From the NCBI GenBank assembly GCA_016200965.1, contig JACQDT010000006.1, positions 1 through 49,351 on the forward strand: a stretch of DNA of 49,351 nt, given 5' to 3'. Positions 1 through 10,587 of this stretch are shown here, piece after piece. Both the position numbers and the translations under genes were made by a program. The stretch is from Candidatus Azambacteria bacterium (GTDB lineage Bacteria; Patescibacteriota; Minisyncoccia; GWC2-36-17; WO2-46-25). Below the pieces are notes generated by a model that saw only the letters and a list, made by a program, of their open reading frames with translations, ran no database searches and had not been told where the DNA came from. The stretch's first letter is position 1, and the number at the start of each line of letters is the position of its first letter.

Positions 1-277
1 TCCTGAAAAAATCCAAATCGCTCCGCCCGCCGCCGTACCGCCAAGCGGCACTGCCTCGCAGAAAAATTGCCTTTTCTTTAAGAAGTTAAAAACGGCGCGC
101 GCAAAATCAAAAAATGTAAAGGCAATTTTTCTGCTTGGCTCTGTTCGAACGAACAGGTCGGCGGGGCTTCGCTTACGGCTCACGGACAAAAATTGGGGGA
201 GTTTAAGGGGGAAAACTTTTGCCCGTGAGCCGAACAAACGAAGCAAGAACACGTTATGGCTTTTTGGAGCGGCGGGC
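1..277. repeat. Palindromic two-hairpin repeat, copy 1 (left inverted repeat)
   Basis: There is no gene in the first 253 bases. The stretch folds into two hairpins. The first (about 58-134) has a GCAGAAAAATTGCC-type stem and a loop containing GGCGCGCGC. The second (about 178-231) pairs GCTCACGG...CCGTGAGC around a G-rich loop. Bases 221-277 match 4144-4200 in inverted orientation with about 55 of 57 identical, and the similarity continues more weakly outward. The last part overlaps the 3' end of the MazG-like gene. Function unknown; it resembles a MITE or REP-like repeat. Confidence 0.7.
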
Positions 278-649
278 TGAATTTTTAATTTTCCAATACT
301 TTGGATCGGCGCCGGAGCCCGATTCTTCTTTTGCGTTCTTTCGCATAAGTTCCGCGGGGTATTTTCTTCTCACTTGTTCCAATTTAGCCATCACTATTTT
401 TTCAACGTCAAGATGTAGCAATATTGCCATCTCAATGGCGTATATAAATACATCAGCCAACTCTTTTTTAATATCCTCCATTCTTTGAGCATCGCGCTTT
501 GTTTCTTCAATATCTAAGCTTATCCACTGAAAAACTTCCAAAAGCTCTGCCGCTTCAATGGATATGGACTTTGCTAAATCGGAAGGACGGAGTTTATCCC
601 AACCCCGCTCAACAAGAAACCTTTTAATTTCGGATTCAATATTTTTCAT
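254..649 (-). CDS. MazG-like nucleotide pyrophosphohydrolase
   Basis: This 131-residue protein is the usual length for a single-domain all-alpha NTP pyrophosphatase of the MazG/dCTPase group, which hydrolyses (d)NTPs to NMP and pyrophosphate. The metal-binding signature is visible: SIEAAELLEVFQW near residues 30-42 and KKELADVFIYAIEMA near 61-75 supply the ExxE and ExxD acidic residues. The ATG follows an extended -10 (TGATATAAT) closely, so it probably has its own promoter rather than sharing that of the upstream operon, which ends in a terminator at 700-742. The last ten or so codons lie inside the left inverted repeat, so its C-terminus was probably shaped by that repeat. A house-cleaning or phage-defence role is possible; the substrate cannot be read from sequence. 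Confidence 0.85.
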   Translation of the reverse strand: MKNIESEIKRFLVERGWDKLRPSDLAKSISIEAAELLEVFQWISLDIEETKRDAQRMEDIKKELADVFIYAIEMAILLHLDVEKIVMAKLEQVRRKYPAELMRKNAKEESGSGADPKYWKIKNSARRSKKP

Positions 650-663
650 AAAATCTCAATTTC

Positions 664-672
664 ATTATATCA
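664..672 (-). promoter_or_regulatory. Extended -10 promoter of the MazG-like gene
   Basis: On the minus strand the sequence reads TGATATAAT, ending 14 bases before the ATG at 649. No convincing -35 box is seen, which is common with a TGn-extended -10. Confidence 0.55.
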
Positions 673-699
673 GTTTTCTGAAAACTTTGGAATAGAAAA

Positions 700-742
700 G
701 GCCTCTGTGATTTTCTCTTTGTTAAGATGAATCACAGAGGCC
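700..742 (-). terminator. Intrinsic terminator of the radical SAM operon
   Basis: A perfect 13-bp stem (GGCCTCTGTGATT and its complement) encloses a loop of about 17 bases. On the minus strand it is followed by TTTTCT. It lies 20 bases after the stop of the kinase gene and closes the four-gene operon. Confidence 0.75.
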
Positions 743-761
743 GAAGTTGTTGACGCTCTTA

Positions 762-1298
762 TCATTGCTGTTGCTTGATAAGAGCATCGAGTTGTGCCAG
801 GAAATCGTCTGCCGAATCTCCCGGCCGAAAAAACAGGTTGGCTGACACCTCAAGCTCCGAAACGTACCGTTCTGTCTCATGAGAGAGAGTCTTGCGCGCG
901 TCTTTTTCGTCTAGCTGATCGCGAGCTATGAGTCGCGCAAGTTGCGTCCCCAGATCGCATACGCAGTAAACGAGAACGCCGCGAGGAAACAGCCCAACGA
1001 GACGAGTATAAATCGTCCCGTGCCTTAGGCCGTCAACGATGAGCGGACCATTCCACTGAATCTGTGGCGAATGCTCGATTGACCATTGCAAAAACCCGTC
1101 GTAGCCAAGTTGATCGATGAGTTCTTGTCCAATGCGCTGCAGACTTTCGCGCGTCACTGGCAGGTCGCTTCTGACCAGATGGTCTTTGAGAATCCCGCCG
1201 AAAGAAATCAACGGATAGCCGGTATGCTCCGCAATTTTCTTCGCGAGCGTTGACTTACCGCTGCAAATTTTGCCCGCGACATATATCTTGGTATCCAA
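762..1298 (-). CDS. P-loop nucleoside/nucleotide kinase-like protein
   Basis: This 178-residue protein begins with a Walker A loop, GKICSGKSTLAKK, near residues 8-20. A VDGLRH segment near 89 resembles the lid-side motif of small NMP kinases and dephospho-CoA-kinase-like proteins. The size fits a phage-type dNMP kinase or adenylate-kinase-like fold, but the phosphate acceptor is unknown. The start is TTG at 1296-1298; it is chosen because GAAGGAGG lies six bases before it and the Walker A motif must be close to the N-terminus. It is the last gene of the operon, 12 bases after the ASCH gene, and a terminator follows. The context suggests it phosphorylates a small molecule or nucleotide made or altered by the radical SAM enzyme; that is inference. 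Confidence 0.75.
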   Translation of the reverse strand: MDTKIYVAGKICSGKSTLAKKIAEHTGYPLISFGGILKDHLVRSDLPVTRESLQRIGQELIDQLGYDGFLQWSIEHSPQIQWNGPLIVDGLRHGTIYTRLVGLFPRGVLVYCVCDLGTQLARLIARDQLDEKDARKTLSHETERYVSELEVSANLFFRPGDSADDFLAQLDALIKQQQ

Positions 1299-1310
1299 TG
1301 TGAGCCTCCT

Positions 1311-1739
1311 TCAAGCTGTGGCATTGATTGGTTTATCGAGCACCACCCATCCCCGACGGTCTTTCTTGGGGAATGGGAATGGTCGCTCGAAACGAGTTGG
1401 CTGAGCGACGTGCATCAAGGTTGCGTACTTGGACGCATGCCGCCTCTGCCAATACTGCGGATCGACATCGGCGCAAAGGGATTCGCTGTAACTGGCTTCA
1501 AGTTCTTTGAGTTTCTCTTGGGAAAGATTCCCGAAACTCTCCAGCTTCGCCACAACGAACGACCCTCTGACCAAGCCGCCGCTTTCTTTCATAAGCACTA
1601 CGTCGCCTTCTTCTATCACTCCAAAGGGGGCGCAGCGCACTTTGCTGAAACGCCCCTCAATAGTTTTCCTCCCTTCCAAGATGAGATCGAGGAAAGGAGG
1701 GTTGAAGATGGCCAAGTGTTGTTTTTGTTGTTTTTCCAT
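1311..1739 (-). CDS. ASCH (PUA-like) domain protein
   Basis: About 142 residues. The segment LILEGRKTIEGRFSK (residues 17-31) is the hallmark of ASCH domains, which share the PUA fold and bind RNA or modified nucleosides; some, such as YqfB, are N4-acetylcytidine amidohydrolases. The start at 1739 is preferred over an upstream in-frame ATG because GGAGG sits eight bases ahead of it and the preceding gene ends at 1744. It lies between the Rossmann protein and the kinase with very short gaps, so the four are co-transcribed. It may recognise a modified base or nucleoside produced by the operon; this is inference. Whether it is an enzyme or a binding domain cannot be told. Confidence 0.75.
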   Translation of the reverse strand: MEKQQKQHLAIFNPPFLDLILEGRKTIEGRFSKVRCAPFGVIEEGDVVLMKESGGLVRGSFVVAKLESFGNLSQEKLKELEASYSESLCADVDPQYWQRRHASKYATLMHVAQPTRFERPFPFPKKDRRGWVVLDKPINATA

Positions 1740-1743
1740 ACGT

Positions 1744-3039
1744 TTATCCTCCGAAATGCGAGCGAAGCTCGCGCCAGACCTTCTCAACGGCCGACTTTTC
1801 TAATTCAGGGATTGTGGCGTTCGGATATTCCCGCCGAATGCTTTCGAAGATTTCCTCAAACGAGAGGTTATCCCGAATACCTTCGACGATTTTCCAAATC
1901 GCCCTCCACCCCTTTATCTTAAAGCCGCGTTGAGTTGAAGTCCAGAGATCGATTTCTTTCCGAATCGGATCGCGTCGGCTGACCGTAGGAAGAGCAACGT
2001 GCCCGTCGGCAAAATCCAGAAGTTCAGGCGCGATATAGATGTCAGGATTTTCATCCTTAACCCGCACCTTCACCTTAACCTTGCCGACAATCAGCTCTCG
2101 CCATTGTCCTTCTTCCACGCGTAAGGCTATGTTTTCCGGCAAGCGAGTTCCGTCGGAGATGAACATTGCCAAGTCGCCACGCCGCCAGTTTTTCGCTTCG
2201 ATTCCCCTGCGTACAAGAGTTTCCCGCTCAAACTGTGGCGTGTAGTAGTGGGCGACATGCGTCTCCATCGAGACAAGACTCAATCCGTACGACATCGCAA
2301 TCTCAAACACCCTTTTGCGCTCTTGAAGCGAGGTGGGACGAGTGAGAAGCGGGAAGAGAACGAACGCAACCGTTGCGTAGCGGCCGTAGGACAACTGCAT
2401 GCTCCGGCGCAGGAAAAGGTCATAGTAATCTACGTACCACGGCGGGTCGAAGAAAACCATGTCGGCGCTGCCAACCAGTTCCTGCGGCAGAGACTCTTCG
2501 GCATCGTAGTGAATAAGGTGTACTCGTTCACTATCGACATCTTTCTTGATCGTCCCAAGTGTTGCGTCGCTCTTATCCAGAATGTAAATCTTCGATTCTG
2601 GGAGTAGGGCGGAGGCGAACGCTCCGAAAAGTGGCGAGCCAAGAAAAACTACGGATTCTGGTGTCGGTAGTGGGTTGTTGTGGATTAAAAGCTCCGCAAC
2701 CTTTTCTCGGCCGCTGTGCGTGAACCACCACTCGTAATCGAGACAGTGAGGTAGATGGATCCGCCCCATGATTGCCGATAGCGAAGTGTAGGCTCGATCT
2801 AGATTCTCGTTCCAGTCAGTGTAAAGTCTGCGCCATCGGTTCGGAATTGAACCATCCAGCGCATACTCCTCGCCGTCGCGCCGAACAAGATGGTTCGCCT
2901 CCATTTCGCCAAGTAGCGATGCAAGTTGGTCCGGGAAAAGCGAGTGGCAACTTTCAAGAAGTTGCTTGAAGGTTTGTGGTGAGCGTTCAAGCGAACGTAT
3001 CACCGCGTAGTGAGCTAGTGTCTTTTCTGTCTGCGTCAT
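1744..3039 (-). CDS. Winged-helix plus BpsA/methyltransferase-like Rossmann protein
   Basis: This 431-residue protein starts with a winged-helix-like region (residues 1-60, two helix-turn patterns around LLESCHSLFPDQLASLLGEM). A Rossmann domain follows with VVFLGSPLFGAFASALLP as the ligand loop (about 130-147) and VFFDPPWY (about 196-203) as a DPPW-type motif. This order matches the branched-chain polyamine synthase (BpsA) family, whose members use a methyltransferase-like fold for aminopropyl transfer, but an N6-adenine methyltransferase-like role is equally open. The C-terminal 90 residues look like another small helical domain. Its ribosome binding site AGGAGG overlaps the end of the radical SAM gene, so the two are translationally linked. 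Function within the operon is not established. Confidence 0.65.
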   Translation of the reverse strand: MTQTEKTLAHYAVIRSLERSPQTFKQLLESCHSLFPDQLASLLGEMEANHLVRRDGEEYALDGSIPNRWRRLYTDWNENLDRAYTSLSAIMGRIHLPHCLDYEWWFTHSGREKVAELLIHNNPLPTPESVVFLGSPLFGAFASALLPESKIYILDKSDATLGTIKKDVDSERVHLIHYDAEESLPQELVGSADMVFFDPPWYVDYYDLFLRRSMQLSYGRYATVAFVLFPLLTRPTSLQERKRVFEIAMSYGLSLVSMETHVAHYYTPQFERETLVRRGIEAKNWRRGDLAMFISDGTRLPENIALRVEEGQWRELIVGKVKVKVRVKDENPDIYIAPELLDFADGHVALPTVSRRDPIRKEIDLWTSTQRGFKIKGWRAIWKIVEGIRDNLSFEEIFESIRREYPNATIPELEKSAVEKVWRELRSHFGG

Positions 3040-3042
3040 CTG

Positions 3043-4047
3043 TTACCTCCTGATGTTCACTTCGGTAATGGGAGTTGAGAGTTCCGTCGCACTGAAACGC
3101 CGTTGCACTTCTGCAAGCCACGCCTCGAGAGCACGGAATTGGTTCGCTTCCGCTTGCTGGATGTACCGATTCACATTGGCGTTGAAGCCAAAGATGCGAA
3201 GCGGCACGATGCGGAGTGGAAAGTTCGAGTGAACGCGTTTCTGGATTTCGTCCAGTAACCTCGCCATCTTGCCCGGCAGGTCATCAGTGTTCATGGTGGT
3301 AATGGTGATGTAGCCATACTGATCGAATCCTGCCGCAACGAAACGGCCGAGCAATTCGATCTGCTGGTCAAACAACGCACCGTCTGCGCGGGTGTTGAAA
3401 GTAAATGACTCGGCGTCAAATCCCTTCAAGCATCCTACCCGGGCAAATCCGTGAGATTGCGCCATGAACGTGATTTCTGCCTCGCTCAAGTATCGCCACG
3501 TGTAATCCGTGCTCAAGTTGTCATCAGCCCAGACGAAGTGGCTCTGCTCGAGACCGAGCTCTTTTCGCGCTTCTAGAAACCACAGCACGTACTCCGGCAC
3601 TAACTCTGGCTGTCCGCCCGAGAGATCGATGACTTGGGAATTCACTTTCTCGTCGAGCATCATTTGCAGGAGTTGCTTGGGGGTGACCATATCAGAGTGT
3701 TTCGGATCTGCCGTAAGTAGACTGAAATCCACGAAGCAGTACCAGCACCGGAAGTCGCACGCCGAAAGTTGAAAGACTTGGGCGAGCAGGACATCCGTGA
3801 CAGGTAGCCCAAGATACTTACAGGTGGGGAGCGTCGGAAGCGGATTGGTAACCCAGTTCGGGTCCGGTTCAAGGCGGAAGTGATGGATCCTGCCGAAGCC
3901 GCCACAGTTGGGCGGGAGCGACAGATCCGTGGCTTGAGCCGAGCCGGGAAATTTCGTCATTCGAATCGCCCTTGCTTGGCGATCGATCGACTTTTTCCGC
4001 AAGCGTTCGGCAAGTTTCTGTGAATCGAGCGGCTTTTGCGTACTCAT
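3043..4047 (-). CDS. Radical SAM enzyme
   Basis: 334 residues from the ATG at 4047, which has GGAG eight bases upstream; a longer open frame to 4455 runs through the repeat and is not believed. The cluster-binding motif CDFRCWYC (C97, C101, C104) is the canonical CX3CX2C that holds a 4Fe-4S cluster and cleaves S-adenosylmethionine. DLSGGQPEL is the SAM-binding GGE-like motif, with Gln in place of Glu. An N-terminal GGFGRIHHFR segment precedes the core. No C-terminal SPASM cysteine cluster is visible. It is the first gene of a four-gene operon with a BpsA-like protein, an ASCH protein and a kinase. The substrate is unknown; nucleotide or polyamine chemistry is a guess from the neighbours. Confidence 0.8.
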   Translation of the reverse strand: MSTQKPLDSQKLAERLRKKSIDRQARAIRMTKFPGSAQATDLSLPPNCGGFGRIHHFRLEPDPNWVTNPLPTLPTCKYLGLPVTDVLLAQVFQLSACDFRCWYCFVDFSLLTADPKHSDMVTPKQLLQMMLDEKVNSQVIDLSGGQPELVPEYVLWFLEARKELGLEQSHFVWADDNLSTDYTWRYLSEAEITFMAQSHGFARVGCLKGFDAESFTFNTRADGALFDQQIELLGRFVAAGFDQYGYITITTMNTDDLPGKMARLLDEIQKRVHSNFPLRIVPLRIFGFNANVNRYIQQAEANQFRALEAWLAEVQRRFSATELSTPITEVNIRR

Positions 4048-4143
4048 CGTTATTCTCCTATTCTGTTGTGAATGTGTTAAAAATTCCGAGACTATCTCGA
4101 AATTCCAGTTTGGATAGTACCATCTTTCTGGTATTATTACAAT

Positions 4144-4420
4144 GCCCGCCGCTCCAAAAAGCCATAACGCGTTCTTGCTTCGTTTGTTCGGCTCGCGGGC
4201 AAAAATTGGGGGAGTTTGAGGGGGAAAATTTTTGCCCGCGAGCTGTAAGCGTAACCCCGCCGCCTGCTCGTTCAGAGCAGAGCCAAGCAAAATACTTTTT
4301 TCCTTTTTAGAAGAATTTTTGGTGGCGCGCGCAAATCGGAAATAGTAAAGAGTATTTTGCTTGGCGGCGAGCGTTAGCGAGCGGTGGCGGGGCGGCTTCC
4401 TTTGTTCAGGATTTTTTGAT
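4144..4420. repeat. Palindromic two-hairpin repeat, copy 2 (right inverted repeat)
   Basis: This is the inverted partner of the repeat at 1-277. 4144-4200 is the reverse complement of 221-277. 4191-4243 forms a GCTCGCGGGCAAAAA hairpin. 4282-4365 forms a GCCAAGCAAAATACT hairpin with GGCGCGCGC in its loop. The G-rich loop of the 4191-4243 hairpin points the same way as in copy 1, although the stems are inverted. No open frame here looks real. Confidence 0.7.
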
Positions 4421-5241: not shown

Positions 5242-7209
5242 ATGAACACCAAAAGGTTATTTATTTTTCTCGCGTTGGGGTTTTTCGCGGCTCCGATCGT
5301 TGCGTTTGCGTCCTCGCCGTTTGATATCACGTTTCCGATTCCCGAGTTGGGCAATTGCGCGGATAATGCCGCGTGCAAAGCATATTGCGATGATTCAGCC
5401 AATAACAACGCGTGTGTCGCGTTTGCCGAGTTGCACGGAATAAAGATAGATAAAGAAAATGACGTACAGGCGCGCGCCAAACTCATTCGCGAGCAAGGCG
5501 GCCCCGGCGGATGCCAGTCAGACGGTGACTGCCGCGCGTATTGCGAGGACCCCGCCCATCAGGATGAGTGTATCGCGTTCGCAGAGGCGCACGGATTTAT
5601 GTCTAAAGACCAAGCCGAGCGCGCAAAAAGATTCTCGCGCATTGCGCGGGAAGGCGGCCCGGGCGGATGCAAAGGCGAAGAGGAATGCCGCGCGTTCTGC
5701 GAAGATCCGGACCATTTCAAAGAATGCGTTGCATTTGCCGAGAAGCAGGGGTTTATTGACCCCGAGGAGGCCCAGCGCATCAAGCGGCTTCCGCCTGTCG
5801 GCCCGGGCGGATGTAAGGGAGCGGAGTGTAAAACATACTGCGATGACCCCGCCCATCAGGAGGAATGCATCGCGTTTGCCGAGCAGAACGGCCTTATCGG
5901 CAAAGATGAGGCGGAGCGCGCAAAGAAATTCGCGGGTAAGCCGGGTCCCGGCGGATGCCGCGGCGAAGCGTGCAGGACGTATTGCGCTGATCCCGCGCAC
6001 CATGAAGAGTGCGTTAACTTTGCGATAGAGAACGGCTTCATGTCCAAAGACGAAGGCGAGCGCGCCAAAAAGTTCTCGCGGATTGCCCAGCAAGGTGGCC
6101 CGGGCGGATGCAAGGGCGAGGGGTGCAAAGCGTATTGTGAAGACCCCGCTCATCAGGAGGAATGTTTCCAGTTTGCGAAAGAACACAAGCTGGTAAGCGA
6201 GGATGAATTGCATATGATGGAACGCGGCAGAGAGCTTTCTAAAAAGGTGAAGGAGGCGGGCGGTCCCGGCGGATGCACATCGGATAAAGAATGCCAGGAG
6301 TATTGTAAAAATCCGGAACATGTGGACGAGTGTCTTGCTTTCGCGGTTGAGCACGGCGGATTTAAGAAGGAAGATGCCCAGCGCATGTTGAAAGAATTCG
6401 TACGCGGGGCGAATCGTAGTGGGCCGGAAGGGTTTGGCGGCTCGGGAGACGACGCAAAACGATTTGAACAGGAACACCTTGACCGCTTTGAAGAGTTCAG
6501 AACGCTTGAAGGGCAGTTCCGCAGGCCGGAAGGAGCATCGTTGGGAGGGTTCATGGAAGGTCCCGGCGGATGCAAGGGTCCCGAAGAATGTATCAAATTC
6601 TGCTCTGATCCCGTGCACCGAGATGAGTGCGCGAAGTTCAATCTTTCCATAGGCGTTCCTCCGCCGGGAGAAATGTTTAGACAAGGTGAGCCCGGCTCAG
6701 AAGGCGGGTATCAGGGAAAGTTGGAAGGGTTGCGCACATGCGGGCCGCAACCCGGCATGCCCACACCGCAAGGATGCACGGGGCCGGTATGTAAAGAAGG
6801 AAGATGGGAATTTATCTGCCCGCAGGGAGAACGCAGAATGCCGCCTTCCCCCGACGGTTCATATCAGCCGGGCGCGCTTCCGCCTTCCGGTGCGGTGCCC
6901 TATCTTCCCATTAGCGGAACGGAGAATCGCGAAGGAATCGTATGTACCCAGGAATTTCGTCCGGTATGCGGCGAAAACAAAAGGACATATCCTAACGCAT
7001 GCTATGCGAAGCGCGATAATGTCGCGATTACCAAAGAAGGTCCGTGCGAGTCGTTTGGCATCACGCCTCCTCAAACAGGAACTTATCCATCGCCGTATCA
7101 GCAGCCAATGTATCAAAAAGAGCAAGTTCCCGCCCCTTCAGGAGTTTTCCCCCCGCCTCCTTTTGCGAGCGTGCTCGGATCGTTTCTGAAACTTTTTCTG
7201 TTGAAGTAG
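5242..7209 (+). CDS. Secreted Cys-rich repeat protein with a Kazal-like domain
   Basis: 655 residues with a signal peptide (about 1-24, KRLFIFLALGFFAAPIVAFA). Eight repeats of about 32-50 residues follow, each with the pattern PGGC-x4-6-C-x2-(Y/F)C-x2-(D/N)P-x-H-x3-C-x2-F. Each holds four cysteines, so disulfides and an extracytoplasmic location are likely. After a proline-rich linker, residues about 566-604 read CTQEFRPVCGENKRTYPN with later AC and PC cysteines, the consensus of a Kazal-type protease inhibitor. The C-terminus is hydrophobic (SVLGSFLKLFLLK) and may touch the membrane. It is co-transcribed with the NPF protein. It could be a surface protein or a protease inhibitor acting on host or neighbour enzymes; only the Kazal resemblance is sequence-based. 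Confidence 0.8.
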   Translation: MNTKRLFIFLALGFFAAPIVAFASSPFDITFPIPELGNCADNAACKAYCDDSANNNACVAFAELHGIKIDKENDVQARAKLIREQGGPGGCQSDGDCRAYCEDPAHQDECIAFAEAHGFMSKDQAERAKRFSRIAREGGPGGCKGEEECRAFCEDPDHFKECVAFAEKQGFIDPEEAQRIKRLPPVGPGGCKGAECKTYCDDPAHQEECIAFAEQNGLIGKDEAERAKKFAGKPGPGGCRGEACRTYCADPAHHEECVNFAIENGFMSKDEGERAKKFSRIAQQGGPGGCKGEGCKAYCEDPAHQEECFQFAKEHKLVSEDELHMMERGRELSKKVKEAGGPGGCTSDKECQEYCKNPEHVDECLAFAVEHGGFKKEDAQRMLKEFVRGANRSGPEGFGGSGDDAKRFEQEHLDRFEEFRTLEGQFRRPEGASLGGFMEGPGGCKGPEECIKFCSDPVHRDECAKFNLSIGVPPPGEMFRQGEPGSEGGYQGKLEGLRTCGPQPGMPTPQGCTGPVCKEGRWEFICPQGERRMPPSPDGSYQPGALPPSGAVPYLPISGTENREGIVCTQEFRPVCGENKRTYPNACYAKRDNVAITKEGPCESFGITPPQTGTYPSPYQQPMYQKEQVPAPSGVFPPPPFASVLGSFLKLFLLK

Positions 7210-8775: not shown

Positions 8776-9516
8776 CTAATTATTAGAGTTTTCTACAAAA
8801 CTCACATTAGAAAATTTCTTAAGAGAATAATCAAAAACAGCTTTATTTTTATAATAGGAATTCGGAAACAATCTAACCCGCTTTCCAAGCAGTGTGGCAG
8901 CTATGGCCATATGCAATCTATCAGTATTTATTTGTTCGTACTTTTGTAGAAAATCAATCAACTCTTTAAGAGGTTTTGTGGCATACCCGTTATAAGATAG
9001 ATCGTTATTCGATACTGGTAGTCTGTGCAATATTGATTCTTTATCTGACCGAAAAGCATTAAGAACACCTTTCCCGGAAAGTGCCAGAGGAAATTTGTTA
9101 TAAAACGCACAATCGTGCCATAAGTATACCTCGCCATGGGTGAGCCTATTTTCTAAAAATTCTGCAGAAACTTTTTCACGACAAAAAACCATTAACTTGC
9201 TTGAAATATTATTCAAAACTTCAATCTGCTTTTCGCCAAATATTGTATGTGGAAGAATAATTATCTCATCATATAAAGCCGGCTTCTTTTCCAGAAATTC
9301 TCTGATATCAGAATAATAATCAACAAGATTTCCGCCACCATCTATAAGTAAAATATCGTTATATTTGGGAGAGGAGGTATCCACATATTGTTCTGAGATG
9401 TTAAGTGATGAAAGTAATATTTTTGTCCCATGCCAGATAAGAGAGTCGCCATAGTTGCCGGGAAATCGAAAGAAGTCAACTGATTGATCTCTGTAACTTT
9501 CTAAAAATTTTTTCAT
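8776..9516 (-). CDS. Polysaccharide pyruvyl transferase family protein
   Basis: 246 residues. NYGDSLIWHGT near residue 21 is the N-terminal glycine loop of the family, IDGGGNLVDYY near 58 is the second conserved loop, and INTDRLHMAIAATLLGK near 193 carries the conserved Asp-Arg-His block. These enzymes move pyruvate from phosphoenolpyruvate to a sugar, giving an acidic ketal on surface glycans; several relatives act as glycosyltransferase-like enzymes. It is at the short end of the family length. It lies 27 bases downstream of the THUMP methyltransferase gene. A cytoplasmic role in decorating the glycan built by the island's glycosyltransferases is likely. Confidence 0.8.
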   Translation of the reverse strand: MKKFLESYRDQSVDFFRFPGNYGDSLIWHGTKILLSSLNISEQYVDTSSPKYNDILLIDGGGNLVDYYSDIREFLEKKPALYDEIIILPHTIFGEKQIEVLNNISSKLMVFCREKVSAEFLENRLTHGEVYLWHDCAFYNKFPLALSGKGVLNAFRSDKESILHRLPVSNNDLSYNGYATKPLKELIDFLQKYEQINTDRLHMAIAATLLGKRVRLFPNSYYKNKAVFDYSLKKFSNVSFVENSNN

Positions 9517-9543
9517 ATTTAACTCTTCATATTTATGTTTGAC

Positions 9544-10587
9544 TTATTTTTTTAACCTACATAAAAAGATTTTTGGGCGAAGATAGGCATTTACCGAGGT
9601 TAGAAATTTTAACTCCAATGTCTTCACGATTTTGAATCGCGATTTTAAGATGATTTTTTTCAGCATTTCATGCTTACTTGTGTAAACAGCCAGTCTGCCC
9701 TGGGGGTTTAGAGTTTTTTGGCAGTACCCAATAAAACACCGATAAAGTTTTTCCAAATCTTCGTTTTTTGAAATAGACATGCCGAATGGTAAATCGGAAG
9801 TAATAACATCAAACTTGCCCAAATCGGGCTCGTCAAAAATATCTTTCTCTTTTAGTTGTATCTTTCTAATTAACCCCGCTTTCTTTATATTTTGATAAGC
9901 TAACGAAACAATCTTCTTATTGTTATCAAAGCCAACCAACTGTTTTAAGTTCGGATAATATCGACCAGCCTCAATCAGTAATGTTGCGCTACCTGAAAAA
10001 ATATTTAAATAGGAAGCGGCGTACTCTAAATCGCATAAAGAGTTCACCGCGTACGCAATTGTTGGATCCATCGCGCCACTCATATGTTTTGTCTTATAGT
10101 TTCTGAAAGACAGCTGCCTTGGCGTAATTTCAGCACCGACCTCCCAAGTTTTTTCAGTTTTTATAATGTGTATTTTTAAATCGGCTTCTTCTGTCTCTAT
10201 AAGTTTATAGGTGTTTTTAATATATTCAGCGATACTGCGAATTGTCGGAGAATCTGCTCCGGCGCAGAATATTTTAAAGGTTTTGAATTTAGTGTCCTGG
10301 CCTTCAAGAATCATGCTCACAATACCACCTAAAAGAGATTTATGATTCGAAATATAACGGGGATTATATTTCAAGTCTTGCACAATGATGTATGCTCTCA
10401 AGACGCTCCTAAGGCTTGCAAATTTTGTAAAATCTTCCACGAAGTTGAAATACACGAAATCTCCGTAAAGCGGTTCTCTCTTTTCTCTAACAATATGGAG
10501 ATTTGGATATTGGCTTATTTCATTGAAAACAACCTCTCTTAAGCCGGTTATAAACGCTAATTTAATTTCTAGTTTTGGTTTATTCAT
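9544..10587 (-). CDS. THUMP-domain RNA N2-guanine methyltransferase-like protein
   Basis: 347 residues. The N-terminal 150 residues have the THUMP/ferredoxin-like look of the Trm14/RlmL group (GLREVVFNEI near 15). The methyltransferase half has DPTIAYAVNSLC (about 171-182), the SAM loop NIFSGSATLLIEA (about 193-205) and the catalytic SDLPFGM (about 262-268), a DLPFG variant of the usual DPPYG/NPPYG. Known relatives methylate N2 of guanosine in tRNA or rRNA. Its start overlaps the end of the preceding frameshifted GT9 gene by ATGA, so it belongs to the same transcript. An RNA methyltransferase inside a glycan island is unusual; it may be cargo, or it may act on another substrate. Confidence 0.75.
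   Translation of the reverse strand: MNKPKLEIKLAFITGLREVVFNEISQYPNLHIVREKREPLYGDFVYFNFVEDFTKFASLRSVLRAYIIVQDLKYNPRYISNHKSLLGGIVSMILEGQDTKFKTFKIFCAGADSPTIRSIAEYIKNTYKLIETEEADLKIHIIKTEKTWEVGAEITPRQLSFRNYKTKHMSGAMDPTIAYAVNSLCDLEYAASYLNIFSGSATLLIEAGRYYPNLKQLVGFDNNKKIVSLAYQNIKKAGLIRKIQLKEKDIFDEPDLGKFDVITSDLPFGMSISKNEDLEKLYRCFIGYCQKTLNPQGRLAVYTSKHEMLKKIILKSRFKIVKTLELKFLTSVNAYLRPKIFLCRLKK

Follow-up and report, generated by a model that had tools for sequence, protein, structure and literature searches.

What kind of system is encoded by a compact operon that joins two S-adenosylmethionine (SAM) enzymes, an ASCH domain protein and a small kinase in a Candidatus Azambacteria bacterium with a genome of only 0.87 Mb? 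The operon lies on contig JACQDT010000006.1 (assembly GCA_016200965.1), a single contig of that genome whose 49,351 nucleotides are referred to here as the window. Our preferred answer, held tentatively, is that it belongs to a horizontally moving conflict cassette, probably directed against phages or plasmids, with a nucleotide-modification core built on the two SAM enzymes. What is observed directly is the set of genes with its order and mobility, the intact active-site motifs and the setting; the folds are taken from prediction. The features of the operon and its linked accessory gene are:

3043–4047, minus strand: radical SAM enzyme (rSAM), 334 amino acids, first gene of the operon, with C97xxxC101xxC104 and GGxP
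1744–3039, minus strand: winged-helix-like N-terminus joined to a Rossmann SAM-dependent transferase, 431 amino acids, with DPPW at residues 198–201 and a predicted BpsA fold
1311–1739, minus strand: ASCH domain protein, 142 amino acids (Pfam ASCH)
762–1298, minus strand: P-loop kinase of nucleotide type, 178 amino acids, TTG start, last gene of the operon, with Walker A (AAA_18)
about 700–742, minus strand: intrinsic terminator of the operon, a 13-bp stem followed by TTTT
254–649, minus strand: MazG-like nucleoside-triphosphate pyrophosphohydrolase, 131 amino acids, linked accessory gene

The four genes are consecutive and share one orientation, with 3, 4 and 12 bases between them. For the transferase (AGGAGGT) and ASCH (GGAGGA) genes the Shine-Dalgarno sequence overlaps the stop codon of the preceding gene; that of the kinase (AGGAGG) lies inside the 12-base gap, and that of the rSAM gene reads AGGAGAA. 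The terminator folds at −26.2 kcal/mol (z = −6.7 against shuffles), and the MazG gene is placed beyond it. A sequence-only reading of the window had described this operon with its gaps, ribosome-binding signals and single terminator, and every checkable detail was correct: the CX3CX2C motif it saw in the rSAM enzyme is C97xxxC101xxC104, its ASCH and P-loop kinase calls lie above the Pfam cut-offs (24.0 against 21.2 and 34.7 against 29.4 bits, respectively), and its MazG-like neighbor scores 43.7 bits against a cut-off of 27. The rSAM enzyme matches Pfam Radical_SAM at 30.7 bits.

That reading, however, covered only the second half of a larger system. Scanning 84,980 species genomes with an rSAM alignment recovered 88 relatives, a lower bound, 80 of which were kept; together with plasmid loci these make a set of 85 loci, in which partner genes were assigned by profile searches, and 62 of the loci are untruncated, i.e., have room on both sides and are not cut by contig ends. 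Most relatives add upstream genes for an XRE/M78 protease protein and DUF4186, and usually DUF6932, and the full order in all five full-cassette records inspected is DUF6932, XRE/M78 protease, DUF4186, rSAM, transferase, ASCH and kinase. Across the 85 loci XRE/M78 occurs in 74, DUF4186 in 75, the transferase in 70, ASCH in 75, the kinase in 75 and DUF6932 in 58; the corresponding counts in the 62 untruncated loci are 57, 57, 56, 59, 58 and 46, and all six core genes (rSAM, transferase, ASCH, kinase, XRE/M78 and DUF4186) are found together in 50 of these. Median distances from one gene to the next mostly fall between about −4 and +3 bases, i.e., stop and start codons overlap (the transferase-ASCH value of −35 is an artefact of maximal open reading frames), and the linkage extends to gene fusions of ASCH with the transferase (L089, L109) and with the kinase (L092, L119). 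Thus, the genes do remain linked in distantly related taxa, a point that the sequence-only reading had asked to be checked, and chance neighborhood can be ruled out, with the same gene order recurring in about 16 phylum labels. The cassette is made of two modules, because the Patescibacteria members and loci L105, L109, L112 and L133 keep the rSAM half alone. The window holds the compact form, in which the core and MazG are present but the regulatory half is not, and a DUF4186 search of its own genome gave no match.

The hosts carry NCBI labels of about 16 phyla, the one archaeal member being a Thaumarchaeota (Nitrososphaerota) bin, and the rSAM tree needs 27 phylum-label changes against a minimum of 16, although several phyla nonetheless cluster; moves of the cassette between phyla are therefore likely. 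Searching with the transferase by tblastn led to plasmids of Tolypothrix, Microchaete, Aulosira, Nostoc, Roseovarius and Rhizobium. Among 72,556 plasmids seven records bear the rSAM gene, six of them typed as conjugative, and the plasmids matched over the full length of XRE/M78 or by a long stretch of DUF4186 are the same seven. In Tolypothrix PCC 7712 the cassette sits inside an 18.4-kb insertion (PMC9679502) with recombinase, DDE integrase, AAA ATPase and integrase genes; a Tolypothrix PCC 7601 plasmid has the empty site, with flanks 100% identical and 4 bases overlapping where they join. The cassette is transposon cargo here, present or absent between two otherwise identical plasmids. Closer to the window, positions 300–4094, i.e., the operon and most of MazG, share 78.6% DNA identity with a Kuenenbacteria contig, and protein identity reaches 85% for the rSAM enzyme and 84% for the transferase as against just 35–61% for SMC, a contrast that, judging from the sequences, we count as transfer between lineages. 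In this Kuenenbacteria contig, the closest relative (L056), the transferase (9010–10307) is read in two frames, so that the copy looks broken or bears a sequencing error. An inverted repeat brackets the operon and MazG in the window:

1–277, plus strand: left arm of the inverted repeat; the contig begins inside the arm and its outer part is approximate
4144–4420, minus strand: right arm of the inverted repeat; its outer end is approximate

The repeat is at least 170 bases long (107–277 pairs with 4144–4311 at 78% identity), its arms may reach as far as the first base of the contig, and no further copies were found elsewhere in the window's genome. The right arm also bears a leftover piece of the 3' end of MazG. 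A housekeeping operon is ruled out by the rarity of the relatives, the plasmid and transposon carriage and the transfer between lineages, and a phage gene set by a search of viral contigs and 50,697 phage records, which turned up no relative of the rSAM gene.

Several of the loci show individual departures. An inserted transposase-like gene splits the transferase gene of the Thaumarchaeota bin (L090 9005–11164), and in Rhizobium sp. WYJ-E13 (L039 10059–11321) a DUF763 gene that may be an added cassette member overlaps the kinase gene. Distant transferase relatives occur in a human-gut phage-like scaffold (L041 786–2081) and a Loktanella plasmid (L040 7929–8921), with the rest of the cassette not in the stretch seen. 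Adjoining the operon in the window (5242–7209) is a gene for a 655-amino-acid protein in which a cysteine-rich repeat (GGPGGC...CxxYCxDPxHxxECxxFA) recurs several times in tandem. A second rSAM family with about 28% identity is found in other Patescibacteria, solitary among housekeeping genes and offering no clue to function:

L043 5863–6948: rSAM of the second family
L044 6193–7260: rSAM of the second family
L045 6041–7111: rSAM of the second family
L046 5842–6921: rSAM of the second family

The near-universal retention of catalytic motifs among the members counts in favor of the conflict-cassette reading. CxxxCxxC, which is common to most radical SAM enzymes, and GGxP are present in 77 of 77 rSAM relatives, with C48 and C206 also invariant; a motif IV of the amino-methyltransferase type ([DNS]PP[YFW]), here DPP[WYF], is kept in 58 of 60 transferase relatives, whose consensus also has a conserved SRRDPRR...VWTSGNR stretch; and the kinase relatives keep Walker A and [D/E]GxRH (68/70 each). 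In the upstream half, HExxH is found in 64 of 65 XRE/M78 proteins, CxxC...CCxxC in 71 of 71 DUF4186 proteins and GSF...DxD, which by our reading resembles a minimal nucleotidyltransferase, in 51 of 54 DUF6932 proteins; no solved structure matched the DUF6932 and DUF4186 profiles. The rSAM model, with a predicted local distance difference test score (pLDDT) of 95, has a TIM-barrel rSAM fold whose best match is the PFL-activating enzyme (Z 17.9 over 229 residues, 3.1 Å), followed by QueE (Z 13.5), RlmN (13.3), TYW1 (13.3) and viperin (12.8), with spore photoproduct lyase also among the matches. The transferase model (pLDDT 90.8) combines a winged-helix-like N-terminus, a Rossmann core and an extra C-terminal part. 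"BpsA-like", as it had been called, holds by fold, BpsA being the clear best match (Z 24.2 over 231 residues, 2.9 Å, 15% identity; Foldseek E 2.6e-14) ahead of the m6A enzyme METTL5 (Z 17.7), but is weak by sequence: PF01861 (BpsA_C) scores 19.5 bits, below its cut-off of 27, and matches only 4 of 54 relatives at E<=0.01, whereas the commonest Pfam match of the relatives is the N6-adenine methylase family (20/54).

Several of the remaining proteins point to nucleotides. The kinase profile matches AMP/UMP-CMP-kinase-like structures, and the ASCH protein weakly matches PH0355. MazG stands after the kinase in L056, before the rSAM gene in L057 and between the rSAM gene and the ASCH-transferase fusion in L109. 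A dCTP-deaminase/dUTPase-like gene, whose product has a hydrophobic C-terminal tail and is possibly membrane-bound, is found in seven loci, nearby in L068 and L080 and between DUF4186 and rSAM in the other five:

L058 7247–7987: dCTP-deaminase/dUTPase-like optional gene
L059 7203–7973: dCTP-deaminase/dUTPase-like optional gene
L060 7201–7971: dCTP-deaminase/dUTPase-like optional gene
L061 7233–7967: dCTP-deaminase/dUTPase-like optional gene
L076 7206–7970: dCTP-deaminase/dUTPase-like optional gene

It is mainly because these nucleotide-cleaving accessories seem to be swapped between loci that nucleotide chemistry is favored; with dGTPase genes in three cassette flanks, they strengthen the modified-nucleotide half of the pathway first proposed for the operon, though not its alternative of a polyamine conjugate. 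A parallel might also be struck with the (PIN)-GNAT-EVE operons (PMC7641849), predicted modified-base conflict systems in which ASCH and an AAA_17-type ATPase form a recurring pair, just as ASCH stands beside an AAA_17/18-type P-loop protein here. In contrast to those operons, the cassette has the rSAM enzyme and the transferase in place of PIN, GNAT and EVE domains, none of which turned up in those cassette proteins that were scanned against Pfam.

The genomic setting is consistent with conflict, the cassette usually standing next to known antiviral genes. When co-location with defense genes was checked, as had been suggested, 98 nearby flanking proteins matched 187 PADLOC families and 98 control genes elsewhere in the same genomes 24, though these are counts of families, not proteins, one helicase alone supplying 49, so that the true contrast is smaller. 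The flank families include dGTPase, Hma, BREX, DISARM, AbiE, Argonaute-associated and phospholipase effector families. We take this enrichment as supportive but not decisive.

For the substrate, the order of reactions, the part played by ASCH, the control and the defensive role, we infer the following scheme. The rSAM enzyme would apply a 5'-deoxyadenosyl radical to a nucleotide or nucleobase, and the BpsA-fold DPPW enzyme would add a methyl or other SAM-derived group to an amine of the product, either exocyclic or introduced by the radical step. The small kinase would then phosphorylate the modified monophosphate to yield a competitor of normal nucleoside triphosphates or a signal, the PUA-like ASCH domain might bind the modified base and so serve as a sensor, a carrier or a means of self-protection, and MazG or the dCTP-deaminase/dUTPase-like accessory would trim competing or surplus triphosphate. 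Where present, the XRE/M78 protease protein, DUF6932 and DUF4186 would hold the system off until a trigger. A stronger version, that this is a new class of mobile immunity in which the rSAM enzyme and a BpsA-fold amino-transferase make a new modified nucleotide acting as antiviral chain-breaker or second messenger, with recognition by ASCH and control by an XRE/M78 protease sensor, we put forward more guardedly still. Several observations pull the other way. The minimal rSAM fold is closer to PFL-activase than to viperin or QueE, which makes a protein or nucleic-acid substrate possible as far as the model goes; the modeled winged-helix-like domain of the transferase could bind DNA or RNA instead of free nucleotides; the transferase is absent from 6 of the 62 untruncated loci; and the family-based counting inflates the flank contrast. 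In addition, the DUF6932 protein matches the PADLOC candidate PDC-M63A (2.2e-16), and PDC-M63, whose A part is DUF6932-like, gave no defense in an assay with E. coli NILS69 (PMC12409345).

The favored reading has a close rival, one that we consider somewhat unlikely: the rSAM and winged-helix DPPW enzymes would modify bases within DNA, tRNA or rRNA, ASCH would read the mark and the kinase would recycle or activate a precursor, with the mark protecting self or crippling the invader. The fusion of the winged-helix-like domain to the transferase, METTL5 and other RNA methyltransferases as its next-best folds, RlmN, TYW1 and spore photoproduct lyase among the rSAM matches and the PUA-like nature of ASCH all fit such in situ modification. 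The fold matches, however, are generic, the cassette lacks a conserved gene for a dedicated nuclease, helicase or target-recognition protein, and a conserved nucleotide kinase would be unusual for it. A different proposal starts from the upstream half and has an addiction cassette of toxin-antitoxin style serving the mobile element, with no immunity, XRE/M78 being the antitoxin-regulator and one of the enzymes the toxin. Plasmid and transposon carriage would suit it, as would the nucleotidyltransferase-like motif of DUF6932 and the resemblance of XRE/M78 to the antitoxin-regulator families RmrA and spr1629, which likewise pair a helix-turn-helix with an M78-type protein. Yet that resemblance lies mainly in the helix-turn-helix region, six to seven genes go far beyond a toxin-antitoxin pair, and the Patescibacteria form, including the window, keeps the enzymes without the regulatory half, making this an improbable account.

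Two further alternatives turn on the SAM enzymes themselves. A prokaryotic-viperin-like maker of chain-terminating 3'-deoxy-3',4'-didehydro nucleotides (ddhNTPs), with the kinase in the VakA role, is suggested by an rSAM enzyme beside a nucleotide kinase in a defense setting, by PADLOC matches to pVip (4.2e-7) and VakA (2.9e-4; 5.0e-6 in Tolypothrix) and by viperin among the fold matches. But the pVip similarity is weak and confined to about 75 residues around the cluster motif, control-set proteins score better to pVip (4e-15), and the fold fits viperin less well than PFL-activase. The rSAM enzyme has its own N-terminal region with the invariant C48, plus C206, and ddhNTP synthesis needs neither an extra transferase nor ASCH. 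A true viperin is ruled out by the family cut-offs (28.6 bits to NCBIfam NF038283, where 180 are needed) and the control matches, and we regard a viperin-like route as very improbable. Less credible still is a polyamine pathway, with a branched or nucleotide-linked polyamine as the product of the BpsA-fold enzyme. BpsA, a branched-chain polyamine synthase, is indeed the closest solved fold, well above the others; however, its GDDD motif, indispensable for its activity (PMC12979288), occurs in 0 of 60 transferase relatives, the Pfam BpsA score is below its cut-off, and the genes conserved in the cassette include no visible aminopropyl-donor or other polyamine gene. The missing motif rules out that a true BpsA makes a polyamine here, and a polyamine product appears unlikely because the motif is absent in all 60 and the amino-methyltransferase DPPW is present; the polyamine conjugate envisaged earlier is not supported.

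The favored conflict cassette seems to have escaped description as a unit. No account of the whole gene set was found in the open-access literature, the scope of that search, and the nearest items are the Tolypothrix genome paper, which just lists its genes (PMC9679502), and the study of ASCH and AAA_17 pairs in predicted modified-base systems. PADLOC 2.0.0 (2023) and NCBIfam 20.0, the catalogs searched, have no model for the core: as a set the four genes go unmatched in PADLOC-DB 2.0.0, with weak partial matches to pVip, VakA and mad2, and neither ASCH nor DUF4186 matches there. The cassette is, in light of this, a good candidate for a hitherto unknown immune or selfish-element system, and it provides a first setting for DUF6932 and DUF4186, families for which we found no role. 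Intact cassettes in named strains of Rhizobium, Roseovarius and Tolypothrix make it testable now. If the preferred reading is true, it would be a conflict or defense chemistry unseen in immunity, two SAM enzymes leading to a modified nucleotide other than that of viperin, and such systems tend to give new nucleotide analogs or new signals. The cassette is also present in the tiny genomes of Patescibacteria, in which few mobile defense systems are understood.

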